Assembly: GCF_023734135.1 (NCBI RefSeq) | Contig: NZ_AP025730.1 | Span: forward strand, 2,108,001-2,172,000 | Length of the DNA: 64,000 nt | Source of the DNA: Sphaerotilus microaerophilus | GTDB lineage: Bacteria > Pseudomonadota > Gammaproteobacteria > Burkholderiales > Burkholderiaceae_C | Reading direction: 5' to 3' | In this document: positions 34,090 through 47,631 of the stretch, in pieces | How the letters are laid out: each line of letters starts with the position of its first letter | How positions within the stretch are numbered: the first letter of the stretch is position 1 | The notes under the pieces: model-generated | What the model was told of the DNA's origin: nothing | The model's database searches: none | The model's input: only the letters and a program-made list of their open reading frames with translations | Made by a program: the position numbers and the translations under genes

Positions 34090-36582
34090 TCAGGCGGCGT
34101 GCACCGGGATGAACTGGCGGGTGTCGACCCGGGCTTTGTCGAACTCGAACCAGGGGTCGGGCTCGCCGTCGAGCGCAAACTGCAGCTCGGCCCACAGGGC
34201 GCGGCGGCCCTCGGTGTCGTCCAGGATCTTCTTCTTCACGTGGTCCAGGCCCACGCGGCTGACGTAGTGGCAGGTGCGCTCCAGGTACCAGCCCTCACGA
34301 CGGTAGAGCTGCATGAAGGCGCCCGTGTACTCCATCACCTCCTCGGCGGTCTTGAGCTTGACGAGGAAGTGCGCCACCTCGGTCTTGATGCCGCCGTTGC
34401 CGGCCACGTACATCTCCCAGCCGGAATCGACGCCGATGATGCCCACGTCCTTGATGCCCGCCTCGGCGCAGTTGCGCGGGCAGCCGCTGACGGCGAACTT
34501 GACCTTGTGCGGCGCGTACATGCGCCACATCGCGCGCTCCAGGTCCTTGCCCATCTGGGTGCTGTCCTGCGTGCCCATGCGGCACCACTCGCTGCCCACG
34601 CAGGTCTTCACGGTGCGCAGCGCCTTGGCGTAGGCGTGGCCGCTGGGCATGCCGATGTCCTTCCAGACGTTGACCAGGTCCTCCTTCTTCACGCCCAGCA
34701 GGTCGATGCGCTGGCCGCCGGTGACCTTGACGGTGGGGATCTGGTACTTGTCCACCGCGTCGGCGATGCGGCGCAGCTCGTCGGCGGTGGTCTCTCCCCC
34801 CCACATGCGCGGGATCACGCTGTAGGTGCCGTCCTTCTGGATGTTGGCGTGGCTGCGCTCGTTGATGTAGCGGCTCTGCGGGTCGTCCTTGGCCTCCTTG
34901 GGCCAGGAGGAGATCAGGTAGTAGTTCAGCGCCGGGCGGCAGGTGGGGCAGCCATTCGGCGTCTTCCAGCCGAGGGTGGCCTGCACCGCCGGGATGCTGG
35001 TCAGGTGCTGGGTGAAGATGGCGTCGCGCACCTCCTGGTGGCTGTGCTCCGTGCAGGCGCAGATCGCCCTCTTCTTCGGCGTGGCGGAGTAGTCGCCGCC
35101 GGCGGTGAACATCAGCAGCTGCTCGACCAGGCCGGTGCAGGAGCCGCAGCTGGCGCTGGCCTTGGTGTGACGGCGCACCTCGTCCAGCGTGAACAGGCCC
35201 TTGTCCTTGATGGCCTTGCAGATGGCGCCCTTGGTGACGCCGTTGCAGCCGCAGACCTCGTCGCTGTCCGCCATCGCGGCGGCCTTGCTGTGGCCCTGGT
35301 GGCCGACGTCGCCGATGTTGCTCTCGCCGAACATCAGCTTGTCGCGGATATCGGCGATCTTGCGGCCCTCGCGGATGAGCTTGAAGTACCAGCTGCCGTC
35401 CACCGTGTCGCCGTAGAGGCAGGCGCCCACCAACTGGTCGTTCTTCACCACCAGCTTCTTGTAGACGCCGCCGATCGGGTCGGAGAGCACGATCTCCTCC
35501 GCGCTCGCGTCCTCGGGACGCCCGGAGGCGGCGCCCATGAAGTCGCCGGCCGAAAACAGGTCGATGCCGGTCACCTTCAGCTTGGTCGAGGTCTGGCTGC
35601 CCACGTAGCGGCCGATGCCGAACTCGGCCAGGTGGTTCGCGCAGACCTTGCCCTGCTCGAACAGCGGCGCCACCAGGCCGTAGGCGATGCCGCGGTGCGC
35701 GGCGCACTCGCCCACCGCGTAGATGCGCGGGTCGGTGGCGGTCTGCAGGGTGTCGCTGACGACGATGCCGCCGCGCCCGTCCTGGGCACACAGCAGGCCC
35801 ATCGATTTGGCCAGCTCGTTGTTGGGGCGGATGCCCGCGGCCATCACCACCAGGTCGGCCGGGATCTCGGTGCCGTCCTTGAACTTCACCGCCTTGACAC
35901 GGCCGCCCTGGCCATCGTCGCTGTCGCCGATCAGCGCCTGCGTCTGGGCGCCGAGCATGAACGTCAGGCCGCGCTCGGCCAGCGACTGCTGCAGCAGCTT
36001 GCCGGCCACGTCGTCGAGCTGGCGCTCCATCAACCAGGGGGCGATGTGCACCACCGTGACCTGCATGCCGCGCAGCATCAGGCCGTTGGCCGCTTCCAGG
36101 CCAAGCAGGCCGCCACCGATCACCACGGCATGTTTGTGCGTCTTCGCCGTGTCGATCATCGTCTCGGTGTCGGCGATGTCGCGGTAGGCGATCACGCCCT
36201 GCAGGTCGCGGCCCGGCACCGGCAGGATGAAGGGGTTGGAGCCGGTGGCGATCAACAGGCGGTCGTACTCGGCCTCGATCACACTGCCGTCGGCGCGCTG
36301 GGCCGTGACCAGGCGCTTGGTGCGGTGCACGCGGGTGACCTTGGCGCCCAGGTGCAGCGTGATGCCCGCATCGGCGTACCAGTCGAGCGGATTGAGGATG
36401 ATCTGCTCAATCGTCTGCTCGCCGGCCAGCACCGGCGACAGCAGGATGCGGTTGTAGTTCGGGTGCGGCTCGGCGCCGAAGACGGTGATGTCGTACAGGT
36501 CCGGTGCGATCTTCAGCAGCTCTTCGAGCGTGCGCACTCCGGCCATGCCGTTGCCGATCAGGACGAGACGAGGTTTCTTCAT
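34090..36582 (-). CDS. nirB: Nitrite reductase [NAD(P)H] large subunit
   Basis: NirB reduces nitrite to ammonium with NADH through FAD, [Fe-S] and sirohaem centres. The 830-residue protein has an N-terminal FAD motif (LVLIGNGMAGVRTLEELL), an NAD motif (AVVIGGGLLGLEAANGLMLR), the BFD-like Cys cluster (CGCNGVTKGAIC, SCGSC) and the sirohaem/[4Fe-4S] ligands (TCVGSEWCRMG and SGCPRNCAEAG). The start is ATG 36582. The leader upstream is about 220 bases from a sigma-54-type promoter and contains hairpins described separately, so transcription is probably controlled both at initiation and in the leader. Confidence 0.95.
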   Translation of the reverse strand: MKKPRLVLIGNGMAGVRTLEELLKIAPDLYDITVFGAEPHPNYNRILLSPVLAGEQTIEQIILNPLDWYADAGITLHLGAKVTRVHRTKRLVTAQRADGSVIEAEYDRLLIATGSNPFILPVPGRDLQGVIAYRDIADTETMIDTAKTHKHAVVIGGGLLGLEAANGLMLRGMQVTVVHIAPWLMERQLDDVAGKLLQQSLAERGLTFMLGAQTQALIGDSDDGQGGRVKAVKFKDGTEIPADLVVMAAGIRPNNELAKSMGLLCAQDGRGGIVVSDTLQTATDPRIYAVGECAAHRGIAYGLVAPLFEQGKVCANHLAEFGIGRYVGSQTSTKLKVTGIDLFSAGDFMGAASGRPEDASAEEIVLSDPIGGVYKKLVVKNDQLVGACLYGDTVDGSWYFKLIREGRKIADIRDKLMFGESNIGDVGHQGHSKAAAMADSDEVCGCNGVTKGAICKAIKDKGLFTLDEVRRHTKASASCGSCTGLVEQLLMFTAGGDYSATPKKRAICACTEHSHQEVRDAIFTQHLTSIPAVQATLGWKTPNGCPTCRPALNYYLISSWPKEAKDDPQSRYINERSHANIQKDGTYSVIPRMWGGETTADELRRIADAVDKYQIPTVKVTGGQRIDLLGVKKEDLVNVWKDIGMPSGHAYAKALRTVKTCVGSEWCRMGTQDSTQMGKDLERAMWRMYAPHKVKFAVSGCPRNCAEAGIKDVGIIGVDSGWEMYVAGNGGIKTEVAHFLVKLKTAEEVMEYTGAFMQLYRREGWYLERTCHYVSRVGLDHVKKKILDDTEGRRALWAELQFALDGEPDPWFEFDKARVDTRQFIPVHAA

Positions 36583-36718: not shown

Positions 36719-36752
36719 GGCGGGAGCCGGTCAGGAACAGAAGACCATCGTG

Positions 36753-36767
36753 CGCCGCCGTTGGCGC
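36753..36767 (-). promoter_or_regulatory. Candidate ANTAR-recognition hairpin in the nirB leader
   Basis: The minus strand reads GCGCCAACGGCGGCG. It forms a 5-bp stem (with the next base) closing the hexaloop AACGGC, with A at loop position 1 and G at position 4, the two bases known to be conserved in ANTAR target RNAs. The identical 15-mer occurs in the narK leader at 40248-40262. It begins about 34 bases after the predicted sigma-54 transcription start. Confidence 0.6.
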
Positions 36768-36811
36768 GTCCTGGACGGGGACGGGAGCGCGTCGGCCCCT
36801 GCCACAGGATT

Positions 36812-36827
36812 AGCAAGCAGCGTGCCG
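36812..36827 (-). promoter_or_regulatory. Sigma-54-type -24/-12 promoter of nirB-nirD-nasA
   Basis: The minus strand reads CGGCACGCTGCTTGCT. Against the consensus TGGCACG-N4-TTGCT/A it differs only in the first base, and the GG and GC dinucleotides are exactly ten bases apart. The predicted start is near 36801, leaving a leader of about 220 bases before nirB. A near-perfect NtrC site lies about 100 bases upstream. Confidence 0.75.
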
Positions 36828-36898
36828 GGTCGATCCGGCCTGCCGAGGCGGGCCGGGGCCGCCTCCGCTGCGGGCCGGCCGAGCGCCACCGCGTTGGG

Positions 36899-36915
36899 TG
36901 CACCAGCAGGGTGCG
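36899..36915. promoter_or_regulatory. NtrC binding site upstream of nirB
   Basis: The sequence TGCACC-AGCAG-GGTGCG matches the NtrC consensus TGCACC-N5-GGTGCA in 11 of 12 defined bases. It lies roughly 100 bases upstream of the predicted nirB start, the usual enhancer distance, and 80 bases before the divergent kinase/phosphatase gene. A further half-site TGCACC lies at 36929-36934. Confidence 0.7.
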
Positions 36916-36993
36916 TAGGGCGGCTCGTTGCACCGGCTCGGGACGCCACACCGCCCCGCTTCGCGGCAAGGGACTTGCTTGCAAGGCGCCACC

Positions 36994-38781
<1,788 letters not shown>

Positions 38782-38848
38782 GCCCACCCCCGTAGCGGCT
38801 CACGCCGGTCCACGCCTGCGCAGAGCTTCGGCGGTTCGTGAGGCGACT

Positions 38849-38898
38849 GTTCCTGCGCAGGCAGGAACTGCCGTCCACACTCACCCCCCTCAAGGGGG
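38849..38898. terminator. Two stem-loops between convergent kinase and narK genes
   Basis: GTTCCTGC-GCAG-GCAGGAAC (38849-38868) is a perfect 8-bp stem, and CCCCC-TCAA-GGGGG (38885-38898) a perfect 5-bp stem. They lie between the convergent ends of the kinase/phosphatase gene and narK. Neither is followed by a T-run on either strand. They may act as bidirectional terminators or be part of a dispersed palindromic repeat that continues to about 38942. Confidence 0.4.
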
Positions 38899-38957
38899 CG
38901 CCACCAGCGGACCGGCAGAGCCGGATCCGCGGCGGCTGCTGGCAGGAACGCAGCACG

Positions 38958-40223
38958 TCAGCGGGCAAAGCTGCGGCTCGCGCTGCTGCTGCCGATGGCG
39001 GCGCCGTGAGTGGCGTCGGGGCGGGCGCGCCCGCCTTTCTCTGCCCAGGTGCGCGTCCAGCGGATCTGCACCAGCCGCAGCATGGCGAGCATGGCCAGGG
39101 CCAGCACCGCGAAGGCCACGAAGCCCCAGAGGTAGGTGCCGGCGTACTGCTTGGACAGGCCCATCGCGTTGGGCAGGAAGCCGCCGCCCAGCGCGCCGAC
39201 CTCGCCGATCATCGAGCCCGCCACCGCGGTGGCCAGTGGCCAGCGCAGCGGCACCAGCTGGAACAGCGCGCCGTTGCCGGCACCCAGCGCCGCAAAGCAC
39301 AGCATGAACAGCAGCGTGGTTGCCGCCAGCGAGGTGCCGGCAAAGCCGCAGAGCACCAGCGTGGCGGCCACCAGCACCAGCACGCCGCTGAGCGTGTTGA
39401 TGCCGCCCACGCGGTCGGAGATGGCGCCGCCCACCACCCGTACGCCCGAGCCCATCAGCGTGGCCAGCATGGTGAGCTGGCCGGCCTCGACCTTGGTGAC
39501 CTTGAACTGGTCGTAGAAGTAGGTCGGCAGGAAGCTCGCCAGGCCGATGAAGCCGCCGAAGGTGACGATGTAGATCAGGCTGAAGGCCCAGCCGTCCTTC
39601 TCGAACAGGCAGGCGATGTGTTCCCGGAAGGACTGGTGCTCGCGGTCCGGCGGCTCCTTGGCGGCAAACCACATCACCGCCATTGGCAGCAGCATCGTCA
39701 GCGCGGCCAGGCCGTAGACGGTCTGCCAGCCGAACTTCATCGCCAGCGGCGGCGCGAACAGCACCGCCAGCACCGTGCCGGAGTTGCCGGCCCCGGCGAT
39801 GCCCATGGCCAGGCCCTTGTACTTGGGCGGGAACCAGCCCGAGCCCAGGCTCAGTGCCACGCCGAAGCTGGCCCCGGCGATGCCCAGCAGCACGCCCATC
39901 GCCAGCACGCGGTCGTAGCTGTCGACGAAGAAGTAGCCAAAGGCCAGCGCGCCGATGATCAGGCCCATCTCCACCATCGCCGCGTTCTTGCGGCCGATGT
40001 ACTGCGAGAGCACGCCCAGCGGGAAGCGCATCAGCGCCCCGGCCAGGATGGGCACCGAGATCATGAAGCCCTTCTGCGCCGGGGTGAGCTGGTAGGTCTC
40101 GCTGATGAAGGGGCCCATCGCGCCGTTGAGCACCCAGATCGCGAAGCAGAAGTCGAAGTAGAGGAAGGACGCCAGCAGCGTGGGCCAGTGTCCGGAGCGC
40201 AGGAAGGTCTTGAAGCCAGCCAT
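38958..40223 (-). CDS. NarK/NasA-type MFS nitrate transporter
   Basis: 421-residue major facilitator transporter with about 12 membrane helices that brings nitrate (and possibly nitrite) into the cell. Two nitrate-signature regions are present: GIAGAGNSGTVLAVLFAP and GEVGALGGGFLPN. The RFPLGVLSQYIGRKNAA loop is also typical. ATG 40223 starts MAGFKTFLRSGHWP, usual for the family. No Shine-Dalgarno is visible; the 25 bases before it carry the ANTAR-type hairpin, so translation or leader folding may be regulated. The gene is divergent from its likely regulator at 40626 and convergent with the kinase gene. Confidence 0.92.
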   Translation of the reverse strand: MAGFKTFLRSGHWPTLLASFLYFDFCFAIWVLNGAMGPFISETYQLTPAQKGFMISVPILAGALMRFPLGVLSQYIGRKNAAMVEMGLIIGALAFGYFFVDSYDRVLAMGVLLGIAGASFGVALSLGSGWFPPKYKGLAMGIAGAGNSGTVLAVLFAPPLAMKFGWQTVYGLAALTMLLPMAVMWFAAKEPPDREHQSFREHIACLFEKDGWAFSLIYIVTFGGFIGLASFLPTYFYDQFKVTKVEAGQLTMLATLMGSGVRVVGGAISDRVGGINTLSGVLVLVAATLVLCGFAGTSLAATTLLFMLCFAALGAGNGALFQLVPLRWPLATAVAGSMIGEVGALGGGFLPNAMGLSKQYAGTYLWGFVAFAVLALAMLAMLRLVQIRWTRTWAEKGGRARPDATHGAAIGSSSASRSFAR

Positions 40224-40247
40224 GGGGGGTACGGGAGGTGGGCTGCC

Positions 40248-40277
40248 CGCCGCCGTTGGCGCCTCGCAGGAGGCACC
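40248..40277 (-). promoter_or_regulatory. Candidate ANTAR hairpin and competing stem in the narK leader
   Basis: The 15-mer found in the nirB leader recurs exactly at 40248-40262 on the minus strand, again presenting the hexaloop AACGGC on a 4-bp stem. Its left arm also pairs upstream: GGTGCCTC-CTGC-GAGGCGCC (40258-40277) is an 8-bp stem with one G-U pair. The two structures share bases and cannot coexist, the usual logic of a leader switch. The element ends 25 bases before the narK ATG. Confidence 0.55.
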
Positions 40278-40419
40278 CGGGCGACCGGAAGCGGTCAAAG
40301 GGGAGGGCGGCACGCCGGCACCGGGCCGGCCAGGCAGGGGGGCGGTGCCACGTCGGCGTGCACCGGGTCGGCCGCCCAGGGGGCCGACGCGAGCGCTGCG
40401 CTGCGCTCAACCAGCCTAC

Positions 40420-40435
40420 TGCAAGACTCGCGCCA
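40420..40435 (-). promoter_or_regulatory. Sigma-54-type promoter of narK
   Basis: The minus strand reads TGGCGCGAGTCTTGCA, one mismatch from TGGCACG-N4-TTGCA, with GG and GC exactly ten bases apart. The predicted start is near 40409, giving a leader of about 185 bases. Two TGCACC half-sites at 40529-40534 and 40551-40556 lie 120-145 bases upstream; the first continues into a degenerate NtrC-like palindrome. Confidence 0.75.
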
Positions 40436-40625: not shown

Positions 40626-41885
40626 ATGATCCAGGTCCTCGTCGTCGCCCCCTCGTCCCCGGATGTGCCCAGCCTGGTCGACGACCTTGAAGCGATGGGC
40701 TACGGCGTCTGTGCCCGCTGCCCATGCACCGAGATGGTTCGCGAGGCGGTGCGCCATGCACCGGATGTGGTGCTGGTCTGGGAGCCCCAGCCCGACGAGG
40801 CCCTGTTCCAGGCGCTGGCGTGGTTGGCCGCCGCGGCGCCGCTGCCGGTGCTGGTGTTCACCAGCGACGTGCGCGCCGAGTCGATGGAGCGCAGCCTGGC
40901 GGTGGGCGTCGATGCCTGGGAGGTCAATGGCTATGCGGCGTCGCGCCTGCGCGCGCTGCTGCAGTACACGCTGGCCCGCTCGCGCCACACCCGGCGCCTG
41001 CAGGAGGAGTTGCAGACGCTGCGGCGGCGTTTCGAGGAGCGCAAGCTGGTCGACCGCGCCAAGGGCATTCTGATGGCGTCGCGCCAGGTCGGCGAGGAAG
41101 AGGCCTTCCGCCTGCTGCGCTCGGCCTCGATGCACGCCAAGCAGCGCATCGGCCAGGTGTCGCAGCAGCTCATCGACGCGGCGCAGTACGCCGAGGCCAT
41201 CAACCGCGCCGGGCGGCTGCGCATGCTGTCGCAGCGCATCGTCAAGCTCTACGCGTTGCTGGTGGCCGGGGTGGAGCAGGCCGCCTCGCGGGCGCTGCTG
41301 GCCGATTCGCGCCAGCAGGGCGAGGCGATCTTCCTGGCGCTGGACAAGGGCCTGTCGCGCCCGACCTTCGGGGACCTGCTCGATGCCGCGGCCGGCAGCT
41401 GGTCGGCGCTGCGGGGCCTGCTCGACGCGCCGGTGCTGGCCGAGACGCTGGCGCAGGTGCATCGCCTGGGCGAGGCGCTGCTGGTGCAGGCCGAGCGGCT
41501 CACCGCCGCGGTGGCGGCCACCGGGCACGGGCCGGGGCTGCAGGTCATCAACGTCGCCGGGCGCCAGCGCATGCTGGCCCAGCGCTACGCCCAGCAGGTC
41601 CTGCTGGGCCAGTTGCTGCCCGGTCCGGCACCGGGGCGGGAGGAGGTGGCGCAGGACTTCGAGCGCGGGCTGGCCTACCTGAACGGGCTGCCGCTGAGCA
41701 CGGCCGCGATCCGCGACGACCTGGCCGCAGCACAGCAGGCCTGGGAGCGCATGCGCGCCGGTGCGGTCCACGCGGACCAGGCCGAGGGATGGGTCGCCCT
41801 GGCCGGGGCGAGCGAGGAGCTGCTGGAACGCTTCGACCGCCTCACCGGCGCCTACGAGCGCAGCATGCAGCTGCTCACCGGCTGA
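40626..41885 (+). CDS. Nitrate-responsive ANTAR antiterminator with receiver-like and PilJ/NarX-like domains
   Basis: 419-residue cytoplasmic regulator. Residues 1-120 form a receiver-like fold, but the phospho-acceptor position reads VLVWEPQP with no Asp, so it is a pseudo-receiver as in AmiR. Residues about 131-187 are an ANTAR RNA-binding domain (RKLVDRAKGILMASRQVGEE, then EAFRLLRSASM). The rest contains two PilJ/NarX-type P-box-like repeats, INRAGRLRMLSQRIVKLYALL and INVAGRQRMLAQRYAQQVLL, the element that binds nitrate in NarX. No transmembrane segment is seen. I infer it senses cytoplasmic nitrate and promotes read-through of the narK and nirB leaders. ATG 40626 is preceded by AGGAAAG. 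Confidence 0.85.
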   Translation: MIQVLVVAPSSPDVPSLVDDLEAMGYGVCARCPCTEMVREAVRHAPDVVLVWEPQPDEALFQALAWLAAAAPLPVLVFTSDVRAESMERSLAVGVDAWEVNGYAASRLRALLQYTLARSRHTRRLQEELQTLRRRFEERKLVDRAKGILMASRQVGEEEAFRLLRSASMHAKQRIGQVSQQLIDAAQYAEAINRAGRLRMLSQRIVKLYALLVAGVEQAASRALLADSRQQGEAIFLALDKGLSRPTFGDLLDAAAGSWSALRGLLDAPVLAETLAQVHRLGEALLVQAERLTAAVAATGHGPGLQVINVAGRQRMLAQRYAQQVLLGQLLPGPAPGREEVAQDFERGLAYLNGLPLSTAAIRDDLAAAQQAWERMRAGAVHADQAEGWVALAGASEELLERFDRLTGAYERSMQLLTG

Positions 41886-42110
41886 TCTGAACCGGCCGCA
41901 CGGCAGCCGCTGGGGCGACTGGGGTGACTTGGTGCTGGCGGGCGCCACCGCATCCGCGGGGTCGGGCCGTGACAGCGGTGTGTGACAGGGTGCACGGACG
42001 TGCCCGAGGCGGGCCGGGCGGGCTGCGTATCATGCCGAGGCTTTTGCCTCGTTCCGGTGCGTCTTCGGCGACGCGGGCACGGGGCTCCCGCGACCCAGCC
42101 GGTGACCAGC

Positions 42111-43118
42111 ATGTCCGAACCCACCAATCCCCTCGTGCCCGATGTCGTCCTGCAGGGCCTGCTGCAGCTCGTGCAGGCGCATGGCGGCATGGTGTCGGTC
42201 AAGGAGGCAGCCAGTGGCCGCTACCTCTGGGCCAATGACCCGATGCTGCAGGTGCTGGGCGTGCCGGTGGACCGGCTCGTCGGCCATACCGACCTGGAGG
42301 TGCTGCCGCTGGCCGATGCCAGCTCGGTGCGCGCAGCCGACCAGCGTGCCCTGGGCGGCGGTGGGGTGGTCACGGGTGAGCAGCGCTTCGAGCGCCAGGG
42401 CCAGCGGCAGGACTACCGCACCTGGCGCTGCGTGCTGCCGGCAGCCGGTGGCCAGGGCCCCGGGCACCTGCTCAGCCTGTGGTGGAACGACACACCCGCC
42501 CGCCAGAGTGCCCAGCAGCTGCAGCAGGCGCTGGCCCAGATCGAGCGCCAGCACGGGGCGATGGAGCAGATGCGCCGACAGCAGGCCGAGGGCATCGACC
42601 GGCCGAGCGAGCTGTTCCGCCGCGAGCACTTCGAGGAGCATCTGCGGCGCGAGGTGGCACTGTCCCTGCGCGAGCAGCGTGAGTTCGCGCTGGTACTGAT
42701 GGCGGTGGACCGCTTCGAGGAGTTGCGCAGCCGCCAGGGCGATGCGGCGGTGAAGCGGGTGGCCGAGAGCATCGCCCAGCTCATGCGCAGCAACACCCGG
42801 GCGATGGACGTGCTGGCGCAGCTGGGCGAGGACCGCTTCGCGATCCTGTTGTCCGGCGTGGGCCTGGCCACCGCCTACAACCGCATGGAGCAGCTGCGCC
42901 GTGCCTGCACCAGCCAGCTGGTGGTGGTGGAGGGGCGCAGCTTCAACTTCGAGATGTCGGTGGGCCTGGCCGGCTTCCCGCACACCGCAGAGACGCTCGA
43001 CGACCTCAGCCAGGCCGCGATCCGCGCGCTGCAGGATGCCCGCAAGCGCGGTGGCAGCCGGGTGACGCTGGCGCCAATCCGCCTGGGCGACGGCAGCATG
43101 ACGGGCCAGGCGGCCTGA
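42111..43118 (+). CDS. PAS-GGDEF protein with degenerate active site
   Basis: 335-residue protein. The N-terminal PAS-like domain (GGMVSVKEAASGRYLWAND, then LGVPVDRLVGHTDLEVLP) is joined by a helical linker to a GGDEF-fold domain. The catalytic motif reads GEDRF where diguanylate cyclases have GGDEF, and the flanks fit (LAQLGEDRFAILLSG). Activity in making cyclic di-GMP is therefore uncertain; it could be a sensor or a divergent cyclase. ATG 42111 begins a methionine followed by SEPTNP. A 225-base gap separates it from the ANTAR gene; I see no clear promoter there, and the link to nitrate is only proximity. Confidence 0.78.
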   Translation: MSEPTNPLVPDVVLQGLLQLVQAHGGMVSVKEAASGRYLWANDPMLQVLGVPVDRLVGHTDLEVLPLADASSVRAADQRALGGGGVVTGEQRFERQGQRQDYRTWRCVLPAAGGQGPGHLLSLWWNDTPARQSAQQLQQALAQIERQHGAMEQMRRQQAEGIDRPSELFRREHFEEHLRREVALSLREQREFALVLMAVDRFEELRSRQGDAAVKRVAESIAQLMRSNTRAMDVLAQLGEDRFAILLSGVGLATAYNRMEQLRRACTSQLVVVEGRSFNFEMSVGLAGFPHTAETLDDLSQAAIRALQDARKRGGSRVTLAPIRLGDGSMTGQAA

Positions 43119-45669: not shown

Positions 45670-47631
45670 ATGAAATTCCCCTCTCGAACGCTGGCTGCGT
45701 TCCCCCCGCGGCGCCTCGCCGCGGTGTCCCTGTGCGTGGCCGGTTGCGCGGCCTCCCCGATGGTTGCCGCCCAGGCAGCCGCCTCCCTGGACCAGGTGGT
45801 CGTCACCGGTTCGCGCTTCAGCGATGACCCGCGCGGCCTGCCCTTCGGCGTCAGCGTCATCACCGCGCAGGACATCCGCCGCTCCGGTGCGGGCACCGTC
45901 AACGAGGCCGTGATGAAGCTGCTGGGCGTGCCCGGGCGGCTCGACCTCTACGGCGGCGGCGAGTACGCGCTGGACCTGCGCGGCTTTGGCAGCACCTCCG
46001 ACAGCAACATGGTCATCGTGGTCGACGGCCTGCGCCTGAGCGAAGGCGACCTGGGCGGTACCCGCCTGGCGGGTATCCCGATCGACACCGTCGAGCGCAT
46101 CGAGGTGCTGCGCGGCAGCGGTGCCGTGCTGTACGGCGAGGGCGCCACCGGCGGCGTCGTGATCATCACCACCAAGGCCGGCCGGGGGGCGCAGCGGCGC
46201 AACACCGCGCAGGTCTATGCCGCCGCTGGCAGCCACGCGACCCGCGAACTGCGTGCCGGTGCCACCCTGGTGGCCGGCGACTTCTCGGTGGACGTGGCCG
46301 GCAACCGCCGCCTGTCCGACGGCCACCGCGACAACGGCGAGTCGGCCACGCGGGGCGGCTCGGTGGCCGCCCAGTGGGCAACCGACGGCCTGCGCATCGT
46401 CCTGCGCCATGGCGAGGACCGCCTCAACGCCGGCCTGCCGGGCGCGCTGTCCACCGCGCAGTACGACAGCGACCCGAGCCAGACGGAACACCCGAACGAC
46501 TGGGTGCGCATCATCAACCGGCGCAACAGCCTGCAGGCCGACTGGCGCCTGGGCGACTGGGAGTTCGGCTTCGACGCCGGGCAGCGCGCCAAGCAGGTGC
46601 GCAGCCTGAGCACCTACTTCGGCTCGGCGTCGAGCTACGACTACGACGTGGCGGCCGACCAGGTTGGCGCCCGGGCGCGCTACAGCGCTACCCTGGGCGG
46701 CCTGCGCAACAGCCTGGCCGGTGGCGTGGACCTGAGCCACTGGGACCGGGACGTGGCCGGCACCTACGGGTCGAGCGCGCGGCAGACCAACCGGGCCGTC
46801 TACCTGCGCGATGACCTGACGCTCGAAGGCGGCACCCGCCTGAGCGCCGGCCTGCGCCGCGAGGCCATCCAGAAGACCCACAGCGGCGTCACGGCCGCGC
46901 TTGAAGACACCCTGCAGGCCTGGGAGCTGGGTCTGGTGCAGCCCCTGGCCGCCCAGTGGCAGGCCTATGGTCGCCTGGGCCGCAGCTTCCGCCTGGCCAA
47001 CGCCGACGAGTTCAGCTACACCTCCGGCACGCCGCTGCGGCCGCAGATGTCGCGCGACGTCGAACTCGGGGCGCGCTGGAGGGCCGAACGCGACCGGGCC
47101 GACCTGCGCCTGTACCGCAACAGCCTGCGCGACGAGATCGGCTACGACCCGTCGGCCAACGGCGGCTGGGGTGCCAACGTGAACTACGACCCGACGCGCC
47201 GCCAGGGCATCGAGCTGGAGGGCAGCCACGCGCTCACGCCGGCGCTGGAGCTGCGCGCCACGGCCGCGTGGCGCCAGGCGACCTTTGTCGGGGGCGCCTA
47301 TGACGGCAAGGACGTTCCGCTGGTCAACGCCGGCAGCGCCTCGCTGGGGGCGCAGTGGCAGGCGCTGCCGGGGCACCGGCTGGGGGCGACCCTGGTGTAC
47401 GCCTCGTCGCGCCACCCGGACCTGGCCAACAGCTGCAGCATGCCCTCGGTCACCACGCTGGATCTGCGCTGGGCCTGGGAGCTGCCGGTGGTCGAGCTGA
47501 GCGTGGCGGTGGGCAATGCCACCGATCGCAAGTTCTACACCCAGGCCTACGCCTGTGCGAACGGCCTGCCCACGTCGATCTACCCGGAGCCCGGGCGCAG
47601 CGTGACGGCCGCGGCGCGGCTGAACTTCTGA
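45670..47631 (+). CDS. btuB: TonB-dependent outer-membrane receptor, BtuB-like
   Basis: 653-residue outer-membrane receptor. A signal peptide (residues about 1-37) precedes a TonB box-like LDQVVVTGSR, a plug domain (FGVSVITAQDIRRSGAG, VDGLRLSEGDLGG, IERIEVLRGSGAVLYGEGAT in VERIEVL form) and a beta-barrel ending in an aromatic Phe (AAARLNF). Because it lies directly after a cobalamin riboswitch and before btuFCD and cob genes, its cargo is almost surely cobalamin or cobinamide. ATG 45670 was chosen; its Shine-Dalgarno is weak. Confidence 0.9.
   Translation: MKFPSRTLAAFPPRRLAAVSLCVAGCAASPMVAAQAAASLDQVVVTGSRFSDDPRGLPFGVSVITAQDIRRSGAGTVNEAVMKLLGVPGRLDLYGGGEYALDLRGFGSTSDSNMVIVVDGLRLSEGDLGGTRLAGIPIDTVERIEVLRGSGAVLYGEGATGGVVIITTKAGRGAQRRNTAQVYAAAGSHATRELRAGATLVAGDFSVDVAGNRRLSDGHRDNGESATRGGSVAAQWATDGLRIVLRHGEDRLNAGLPGALSTAQYDSDPSQTEHPNDWVRIINRRNSLQADWRLGDWEFGFDAGQRAKQVRSLSTYFGSASSYDYDVAADQVGARARYSATLGGLRNSLAGGVDLSHWDRDVAGTYGSSARQTNRAVYLRDDLTLEGGTRLSAGLRREAIQKTHSGVTAALEDTLQAWELGLVQPLAAQWQAYGRLGRSFRLANADEFSYTSGTPLRPQMSRDVELGARWRAERDRADLRLYRNSLRDEIGYDPSANGGWGANVNYDPTRRQGIELEGSHALTPALELRATAAWRQATFVGGAYDGKDVPLVNAGSASLGAQWQALPGHRLGATLVYASSRHPDLANSCSMPSVTTLDLRWAWELPVVELSVAVGNATDRKFYTQAYACANGLPTSIYPEPGRSVTAAARLNF

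Follow-up and report, generated by a model that had tools for sequence, protein, structure and literature searches.

A conserved two-hairpin RNA in the narK leader of Sphaerotilus microaerophilus is a candidate target of a PilJ-containing ANTAR protein

Introduction

ANTAR proteins that act on nitrate genes are described in two arrangements: NasR, with a NIT and an ANTAR domain, and NasT, a receiver-ANTAR protein that is paired with NasS, each in a system with a sigma54 promoter and a leader RNA. The targets of NasR in Klebsiella nasF and of EutV in Enterococcus eut have two hairpins with six-nucleotide loops. Rfam holds a family of narK RNAs (RF03032), whose members in the order studied here have two ANTAR-type hairpins downstream of a sigma54 promoter. 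No paper tying this motif to ANTAR proteins came up in our search of the literature, which covered its sources in part and from which we claim no absence from print. Nitrate can also be sensed through PilJ domains: according to the available part of its description (PMC6381276), the PilJ domain of the chemoreceptor McpN binds nitrate via an arginine.

Here we analyse a 64,000-nt stretch of the Sphaerotilus microaerophilus genome (NZ_AP025730.1, positions 2,108,001 to 2,172,000; "the window", whose own numbering is used throughout). Like NasR and NasT, the regulator encoded there is an ANTAR protein for nitrate genes that have a sigma54-type promoter and a leader RNA; unlike them, it has two fused PilJ domains as its sensor and a receiver-like part that is not called by Pfam. 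It also differs from McpN, a chemoreceptor whose PilJ domain is periplasmic, in that PilJ is fused to ANTAR. The narK leader beside the regulator gene resembles the nasF and eut targets in its two hairpins with six-nucleotide loops and in the G at loop position 4, which is invariant in our alignment of relatives. It departs from them in having A or G at loop position 1, in a third hairpin between the two, and in that the terminator scan found no U-tract terminator in it. When the stretch holding this leader was compared with Rfam at E values up to 10, two unrelated families were the only matches and RF03032 gave no row.

The regulator and its neighbourhood

The regulator gene (40626–41885, plus strand) is divergent to narK (38958–40223, minus strand), as a sequence-only reading of the window had stated. 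Its product has a receiver-like N-terminus, an ANTAR domain (Pfam, 1.8e-17) and two PilJ stretches (9.8e-21); Pfam finds PilJ twice in it instead of a NIT sensor domain. Two receiver-ANTAR structures, 1S8N and 6WSH, can be aligned to the N-terminus, and Pfam calls no receiver domain in the protein; we infer that this part is a pseudo-receiver. The closest named records retrieved with the ANTAR protein are from Leptothrix and Sphaerotilus, at about 60% identity. Among the papers listed by a literature search, we found no account of a fused PilJ-ANTAR protein as far as abstracts tell, and do not claim that none is in print.

The residues with which EutV contacts RNA are given by structural work (PMC8934654, in its available part). 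By alignment, they correspond to R139, K140, R144, K146, E157, F161 and M169 of the regulator, and all seven are identical in 8 aligned sequences, except that K146 is T in one (L074). The regulator thus has an ANTAR domain with RNA-contact residues, as is expected of NasR-like one-component antiterminators. The nitrate arginine of McpN corresponds to R315 in the second PilJ domain, in an alignment with 6GCV that is weak (E 0.011) and in which the arginine motif is kept; in the first PilJ domain, R199 takes this place by motif. Both arginines are invariant in 8/8 orthologs, and these conserved residues suggest that the regulator is probably a direct nitrate sensor.

The gene that we call narK, after the sequence-only reading, encodes an MFS transporter (Pfam MFS_1) of the narK type, which we take to be a nitrate carrier; nirB (34090–36582, minus strand; Pfam) encodes the nitrite reductase large subunit. 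The neighbourhood of ANTAR, narK, kinase/phosphatase, nirB, nirD and nasA genes is largely kept in relatives, apart from some genes that have moved or are absent. A gene for a PP2C phosphatase-protein kinase fusion (36994–38781), encoded on the opposite strand, separates narK from nirB and is kept in many relatives. The ANTAR gene is followed by a PAS-GGDEF gene for a putative diguanylate cyclase (41982–43118), which is near the ANTAR gene in many relatives as well. In Pseudomonas putida, c-di-GMP lowers the binding of NasT to its leader, according to the available part of a review (PMC12830290); by analogy, a c-di-GMP link to the ANTAR system of the window is possible.

A conserved element in the narK leader

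The narK leader contains an element at 40332–40435 (minus strand), made up of the promoter, hairpin H1, a middle hairpin and hairpin H2, which on comparison with relatives is the likely candidate for an ANTAR target in this leader. The sigma54-type promoter, TGGCGCG-AGTC-TTGC (40421–40435, minus), is read from the sequence and aligns to the promoter columns of R1, a covariance model described below. H1, TGAGCGC(AGCGCA)GCGCTCG (40390–40409, minus), belongs to the R1 match and has a predicted pair probability of 0.94–0.95, with 0.39 for its outermost pair in the single-sequence fold. The middle hairpin, GTCGGCC...GGCCGAC (40367–40388, minus), is seen in the sequence and has no separate score. 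H2, placed by the R1 alignment, reads GGTGCAC(GCCGAC)GTG, a bulged G and CACC (40344–40364, minus). G stands at position 4 of both hexaloops, and A at position 1 in H1 alone, H2 having G there; relatives have A or G at this position. With both helices in the R1 match, the element has the two six-nucleotide-loop hairpins of an ANTAR dual-hexaloop RNA.

These two hairpins, at 40390–40409 and 40344–40364, had been missed by the sequence-only reading, which proposed instead that the ANTAR protein acts on a 15-base repeat found in the narK and nirB leaders. The idea of ANTAR control fares well in that the ANTAR gene and a conserved target of ANTAR type in the narK leader are present; what falls away is the 15-mer as the element.

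In the single-sequence fold H2 has a probability of 0.06–0.13, as a longer hairpin further downstream competes for its bases. In this structural model, a competing hairpin that includes H2 would fit a switch, yet it counts against H2 as a stable structure. The G at position 1 of the H2 loop and the low probability of H2 count against the working of the leader that we propose below, as does the result of the terminator scan, which gave no U-tract terminator for narK or nirB.

Distribution of the element

In relatives, the leader that faces the ANTAR gene has a sigma54 promoter of the TGGCACG-N4-TTGC type and then two hexaloop hairpins. We aligned 16 such leaders, 13 of narK and 3 of nirB, each with an adjoining ANTAR gene, which is the case for the genus-derived leaders too. 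The rows of this alignment (A1) were picked by eye, leaving out the window and G274, G216, G156, G179, G195 and G160. RNAalifold returned both hairpins unaided, along with spurious pairing within the promoter. On the named structure, 91.7% of the cells of the alignment pair and both partners vary in 11 of 14 pairs, whereas slid versions of the structure give 19–55% pairing, a comparison that favours the named structure, since this alignment also served in part to draw it. Downstream of H2, many of the 16 leaders have a short motif, often CATGTGCC.

R1 was built from this alignment, the window being excluded. In the window it places the narK leader (40435–40332) first, at 42.5 bits (E 7.8e-7), the next match reaching 15.4 bits. 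In the genome, where 150 of 17638 first-look candidates were scored, the element heads the six rows obtained (E 7.4e-5; next 21.4 bits). The nirB leader, which the sequence-only reading had placed under the same control, ranks sixth in the window at 11.9 bits (E 0.82) and so does not match the narK-leader model.

R1 matches at 32 of 37 regulator loci, with 34 matches in all, and at 26 of 31 once the six loci with a training row are removed. No match was found at the other 5/37 loci (E 0.01), nor is the element present in two members of the genus that have the regulator beside narK (L107, L115). Among 120 genomes of the family, R1 is found in 13/17 with a full-length regulator versus 7/103 without (Fisher p 1.6e-9), and 10 of these 13 are training genomes; with training genomes removed, the proportions are 3/7, the window's genome being among the 3, and 7/103 (Fisher p 0.016). 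The loci and genus members that lack the element, and the seven genomes that have it without the full-length regulator, count against our preferred explanation.

The position of the element varies by genome, being before narK in some and before nirB in others. One genome (G205) has it at both places, with 46.2 bits for the copy at the ANTAR/narK locus and 85.0 bits for the one preceding nirB. The elements before nirB at L178:458-566 and L232 stand in genomes whose ANTAR locus has one as well (in L178, beside the ANTAR gene), and are thus candidate cases of a single ANTAR system acting on two leaders. The suggestion that a single system stands over both operons thus keeps its plausibility through the place of R1 in relatives, though not by way of the 15-mer: in some relatives, narK and nirB could plausibly share ANTAR control through the dual hairpin. 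For the window itself R1 does not support shared control, as its nirB leader is no match.

The repeated 15-mer

The repeat itself is real as sequence. The 15-mer GCGCCAACGGCGGCG is exact at 36753–36767 and 40248–40262, on the minus strand in both cases, which is the sense strand for nirB and narK, and the 6.06-Mb genome has no exact copies besides these two leader sites; its reversed control pattern has 1 copy. A hairpin of 4–5 bp with a C:G closing pair and the loop AACGGC, with A at position 1 and G at position 4, can be drawn at both. The narK copy lies outside the conserved element, starting 70 nt past the end of the R1 match, and the ATG of narK (40223) is 24 nt past its end.

That two leaders share such a string is unusual, with the caveat that the string was picked after the fact: in 20000 draws, a common 15-mer occurred in 0.19% of random non-overlapping segment pairs from the window of 245/212 nt and in 0.57% of pairs of 411/402 nt. 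Strings like the 15-mer are over-represented in the window anyway, as 11 matches with at most 2 mismatches were counted against a shuffled mean of 3.38, with 0/100 shuffles reaching 11. Unlike the shared string, the type of hairpin is common: the 64 kb contain, on both strands, 70 hexaloops of the A..G.. form with at least 4 Watson-Crick pairs, 44 of them closed by C:G. The 10-base core CCAACGGCGG is at genome background, with 66 copies versus 69 for the reversed control. At this rate roughly one 210-nt leader in a thousand would hold the core, which makes its presence in two linked leaders surprising if chance alone is at work; this counts against the part of our explanation that appeals to coincidence. 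Duplication as the source of both 15-mers was considered and set aside, as their flanks differ.

Each copy had been said to fold; folding is predicted for the nirB copy alone. With ViennaRNA, the nirB copy, GCGCC(AACGGC)GGCGC (36752–36767, minus), has a pair probability of 0.69–0.71 and the narK hairpin one of 0.00, because the 5' arm of the latter pairs in an 8-bp stem, GGUGCCUC-CUGC-GAGGCGCC (on the DNA GGTGCCTC-CTGC-GAGGCGCC, 40258–40277, minus), with probabilities of 0.83–0.98. Neither copy has a partner consensus hairpin beside it: the possible first hairpin (P1) of the nirB leader has the loop CGCTCC, and none aligned for the narK copy.

Conservation was counted in 42 narK and 50 nirB rows besides the window, which represent 38 and 47 distinct leaders (4 narK and 3 nirB rows are repeats). 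The count took leaders of at least 60 nt from sets of loci that include 29 of the 37 full-length-type regulator loci, leaving out the last 43 loci (L186–L228), which match little beyond the receiver-ANTAR part. Both the 15-mer and its 10-base core occur in 0/42 other narK and 0/50 other nirB rows, so that what the relatives show is the absence that the sequence-only reading had itself named as telling against it. The shorter string CAACGGCG is present in 1 other narK row (L078, at -137) and 6 other nirB rows; in five of the rows with it (L078, L081, L172, L177, L185) narK is just upstream, so the match probably falls within the narK coding sequence.

The proposal that the divergent ANTAR protein binds both 15-mers, acting by antitermination at nirB and on translation at narK, can draw on the restriction of the exact copies, genome-wide, to two leaders that are functionally linked, and on a loop and closing pair that fit the selection consensus of NasR, in the available part of PMC7496416. 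In actinobacteria, moreover, ANTAR targets are reported near start codons (PMC8164766, as far as available). Against this, the 15-mer is conserved in neither leader, the predicted fold lacks the narK hairpin, and a different, conserved target of ANTAR type lies in the narK leader. With the narK copy set aside, the contrast between antitermination and translation, which rested on its nearness to the start codon, has lost its basis. We consider this proposal very improbable. The repeated 15-mer is not a conserved ANTAR control element; its narK copy is best read as a coincidence, and its nirB copy as either a coincidence or a young, degenerate ANTAR site.

The nirB leader

nirB has a sigma54-type promoter of its own, CGGCACG-CTGC-TTGC (36813–36827, minus), read from the sequence and included in the match of R2, a model built on 20 leaders of NasT type in other genomes of the order (alignment A2, from 23 order matches of which L024, L030 and L031 were left out). 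This promoter would give a 5' leader of about 220 nt; in several relatives the sigma54-type promoter is close to the ATG. The best R2 match in the window is the nirB leader (36827–36749; 20.0 bits, E 6.3e-4), with the 15-mer aligned to the second hairpin, P2. The possible P1, GACG(CGCTCC)CGTC (36780–36793, minus), comes from the R2 alignment, has neither A at position 1 nor G at position 4 of its loop, and reaches a probability of 0.02. No terminator was recognised in this leader by the terminator scan. The nirB leader thus weakly resembles NasT-type leaders.

Two other readings of this leader were not adopted. A hairpin GGCCGGC(AACGTGT)GCCGGCC, taken as an H2, has a 7-nt loop and a probability of 0.25–0.26, and is unused in the R1 and R2 matches. 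Compared with Rfam narK RNA, the leader scores 21.0 bits, far below the gathering score of 43.2, and this similarity served as a lead only. RF03032 searched at E 10 also matches in 13/14 control genomes; in the window's genome it gives 12 weak rows, 0 of them above the cut-off, one of which (L005, beside the second ANTAR gene of the genome) has the expected parts.

Could the nirB copy be a functional ANTAR site of recent origin, in which a P2-like hexaloop follows an off-consensus P1 and the narK copy is incidental? It would be bound by the second nitrate ANTAR protein encoded in the genome, which is of NasT type (G000:C1:4.38 Mb), or by the regulator of the window. Beyond its top rank with R2 and the predicted folding of its hairpin, the nirB leader carries the core CCAACGGCGG, which is the majority P1 consensus of the 20 NasT-type leaders and is exact in 7/20 rows; a second leader of the same genome (L123) likewise has a P1 loop off consensus and a P2 that keeps AACGGC. 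In the available part of PMC8934654, the minimal ANTAR motif is redefined as a single hexaloop, and that of PMC7496416 reports binding of NasR to one hairpin at about 12 uM and to two at 1 uM. Set against this are the absence of the 15-mer from 50/50 other nirB leader rows, the missing terminator and the low probability of P1, the R1 score, and the fact that part of the 20 bits is due to promoter columns. Moreover, an unrelated hairpin with the core in the window (47152–47169) reaches 13.5 bits with R2, above the narK 15-mer (local score 9.9 bits, E 0.32). On balance we regard a working nirB site as possible though rather unlikely.

In the window's genome, one R2 match (41.7 bits) is a terminator-containing leader that precedes an nrtA-like gene beside a receiver-ANTAR gene; 150 of 2211 first-look candidates were scored in this search, whose rows do not include the nirB leader (20.0 bits). 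In the genus, 13/13 genomes (L123, L133–L144) have a sigma54-driven leader of NasT type with a terminator and a near-invariant core, CTAGGTGGGACATT..GGACAACGGCGTCC; in the window's genome it lies at G000:C1:5746129-5746213, minus (L123), where Rfam at E 0.1 gives no family. The leader is followed by an nrtA-like gene in 9/13 genomes. In the other four (L123, L142, L143, L144), the window's genome included, such a gene was not found within a flank of about 1.5 kb, and it lies elsewhere with a leader of its own that is without the core. A leader of the L123 type without nrtA could be a stand-alone small RNA, for example one titrating an ANTAR protein.

A proposed working of the narK leader

Sigma54 promoters of the kind found before narK and nirB need NtrC. 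Under nitrogen limitation, sigma54 with NtrC would start narK transcription, judging by the promoter. Nitrate or nitrite would bind the PilJ domains of the regulator, as its conserved residues suggest, and its ANTAR domain would then bind the hexaloops of H1 and H2 in the nascent narK leader. Binding would prevent the competing downstream hairpin from taking up H2, and narK would be expressed. Since the scan gave no U-tract terminator, what binding prevents may be termination by Rho or at an imperfect intrinsic site. nirB would be driven chiefly by its own sigma54 promoter.

The element, the covariation of its helices, its place beside the ANTAR gene and the conserved residues of the regulator are established by computation. 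To the reading that a conserved ANTAR target with two hexaloops, of which the 15-mer is no part, occupies 40435–40332 in the narK leader and works as proposed here, we give a probability of about 0.65. In this two-hairpin RNA a nitrate-sensing RNA-binding protein probably has the means to switch on nitrate uptake. A bolder extension is that nirB of this lineage has lately gained a single-hexaloop site, so that a PilJ-sensing and a NasT-type antiterminator jointly control uptake and reduction via different leaders. We think this distinctly unlikely; if true, it would mean that functional ANTAR sites can originate as single hexaloops, apart from the dual-hairpin design.

Conclusions

The current analysis replaces an unconserved repeat with a conserved RNA target that can be put to the test. 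It links a protein of receiver-like, ANTAR, PilJ and PilJ parts to a leader class that Rfam does not report in the narK leader of the window, and in relatives it finds one and the same leader class preceding narK as well as nirB. The nirB leader of the window offers a case in which to ask if one hexaloop is enough for a working ANTAR site.
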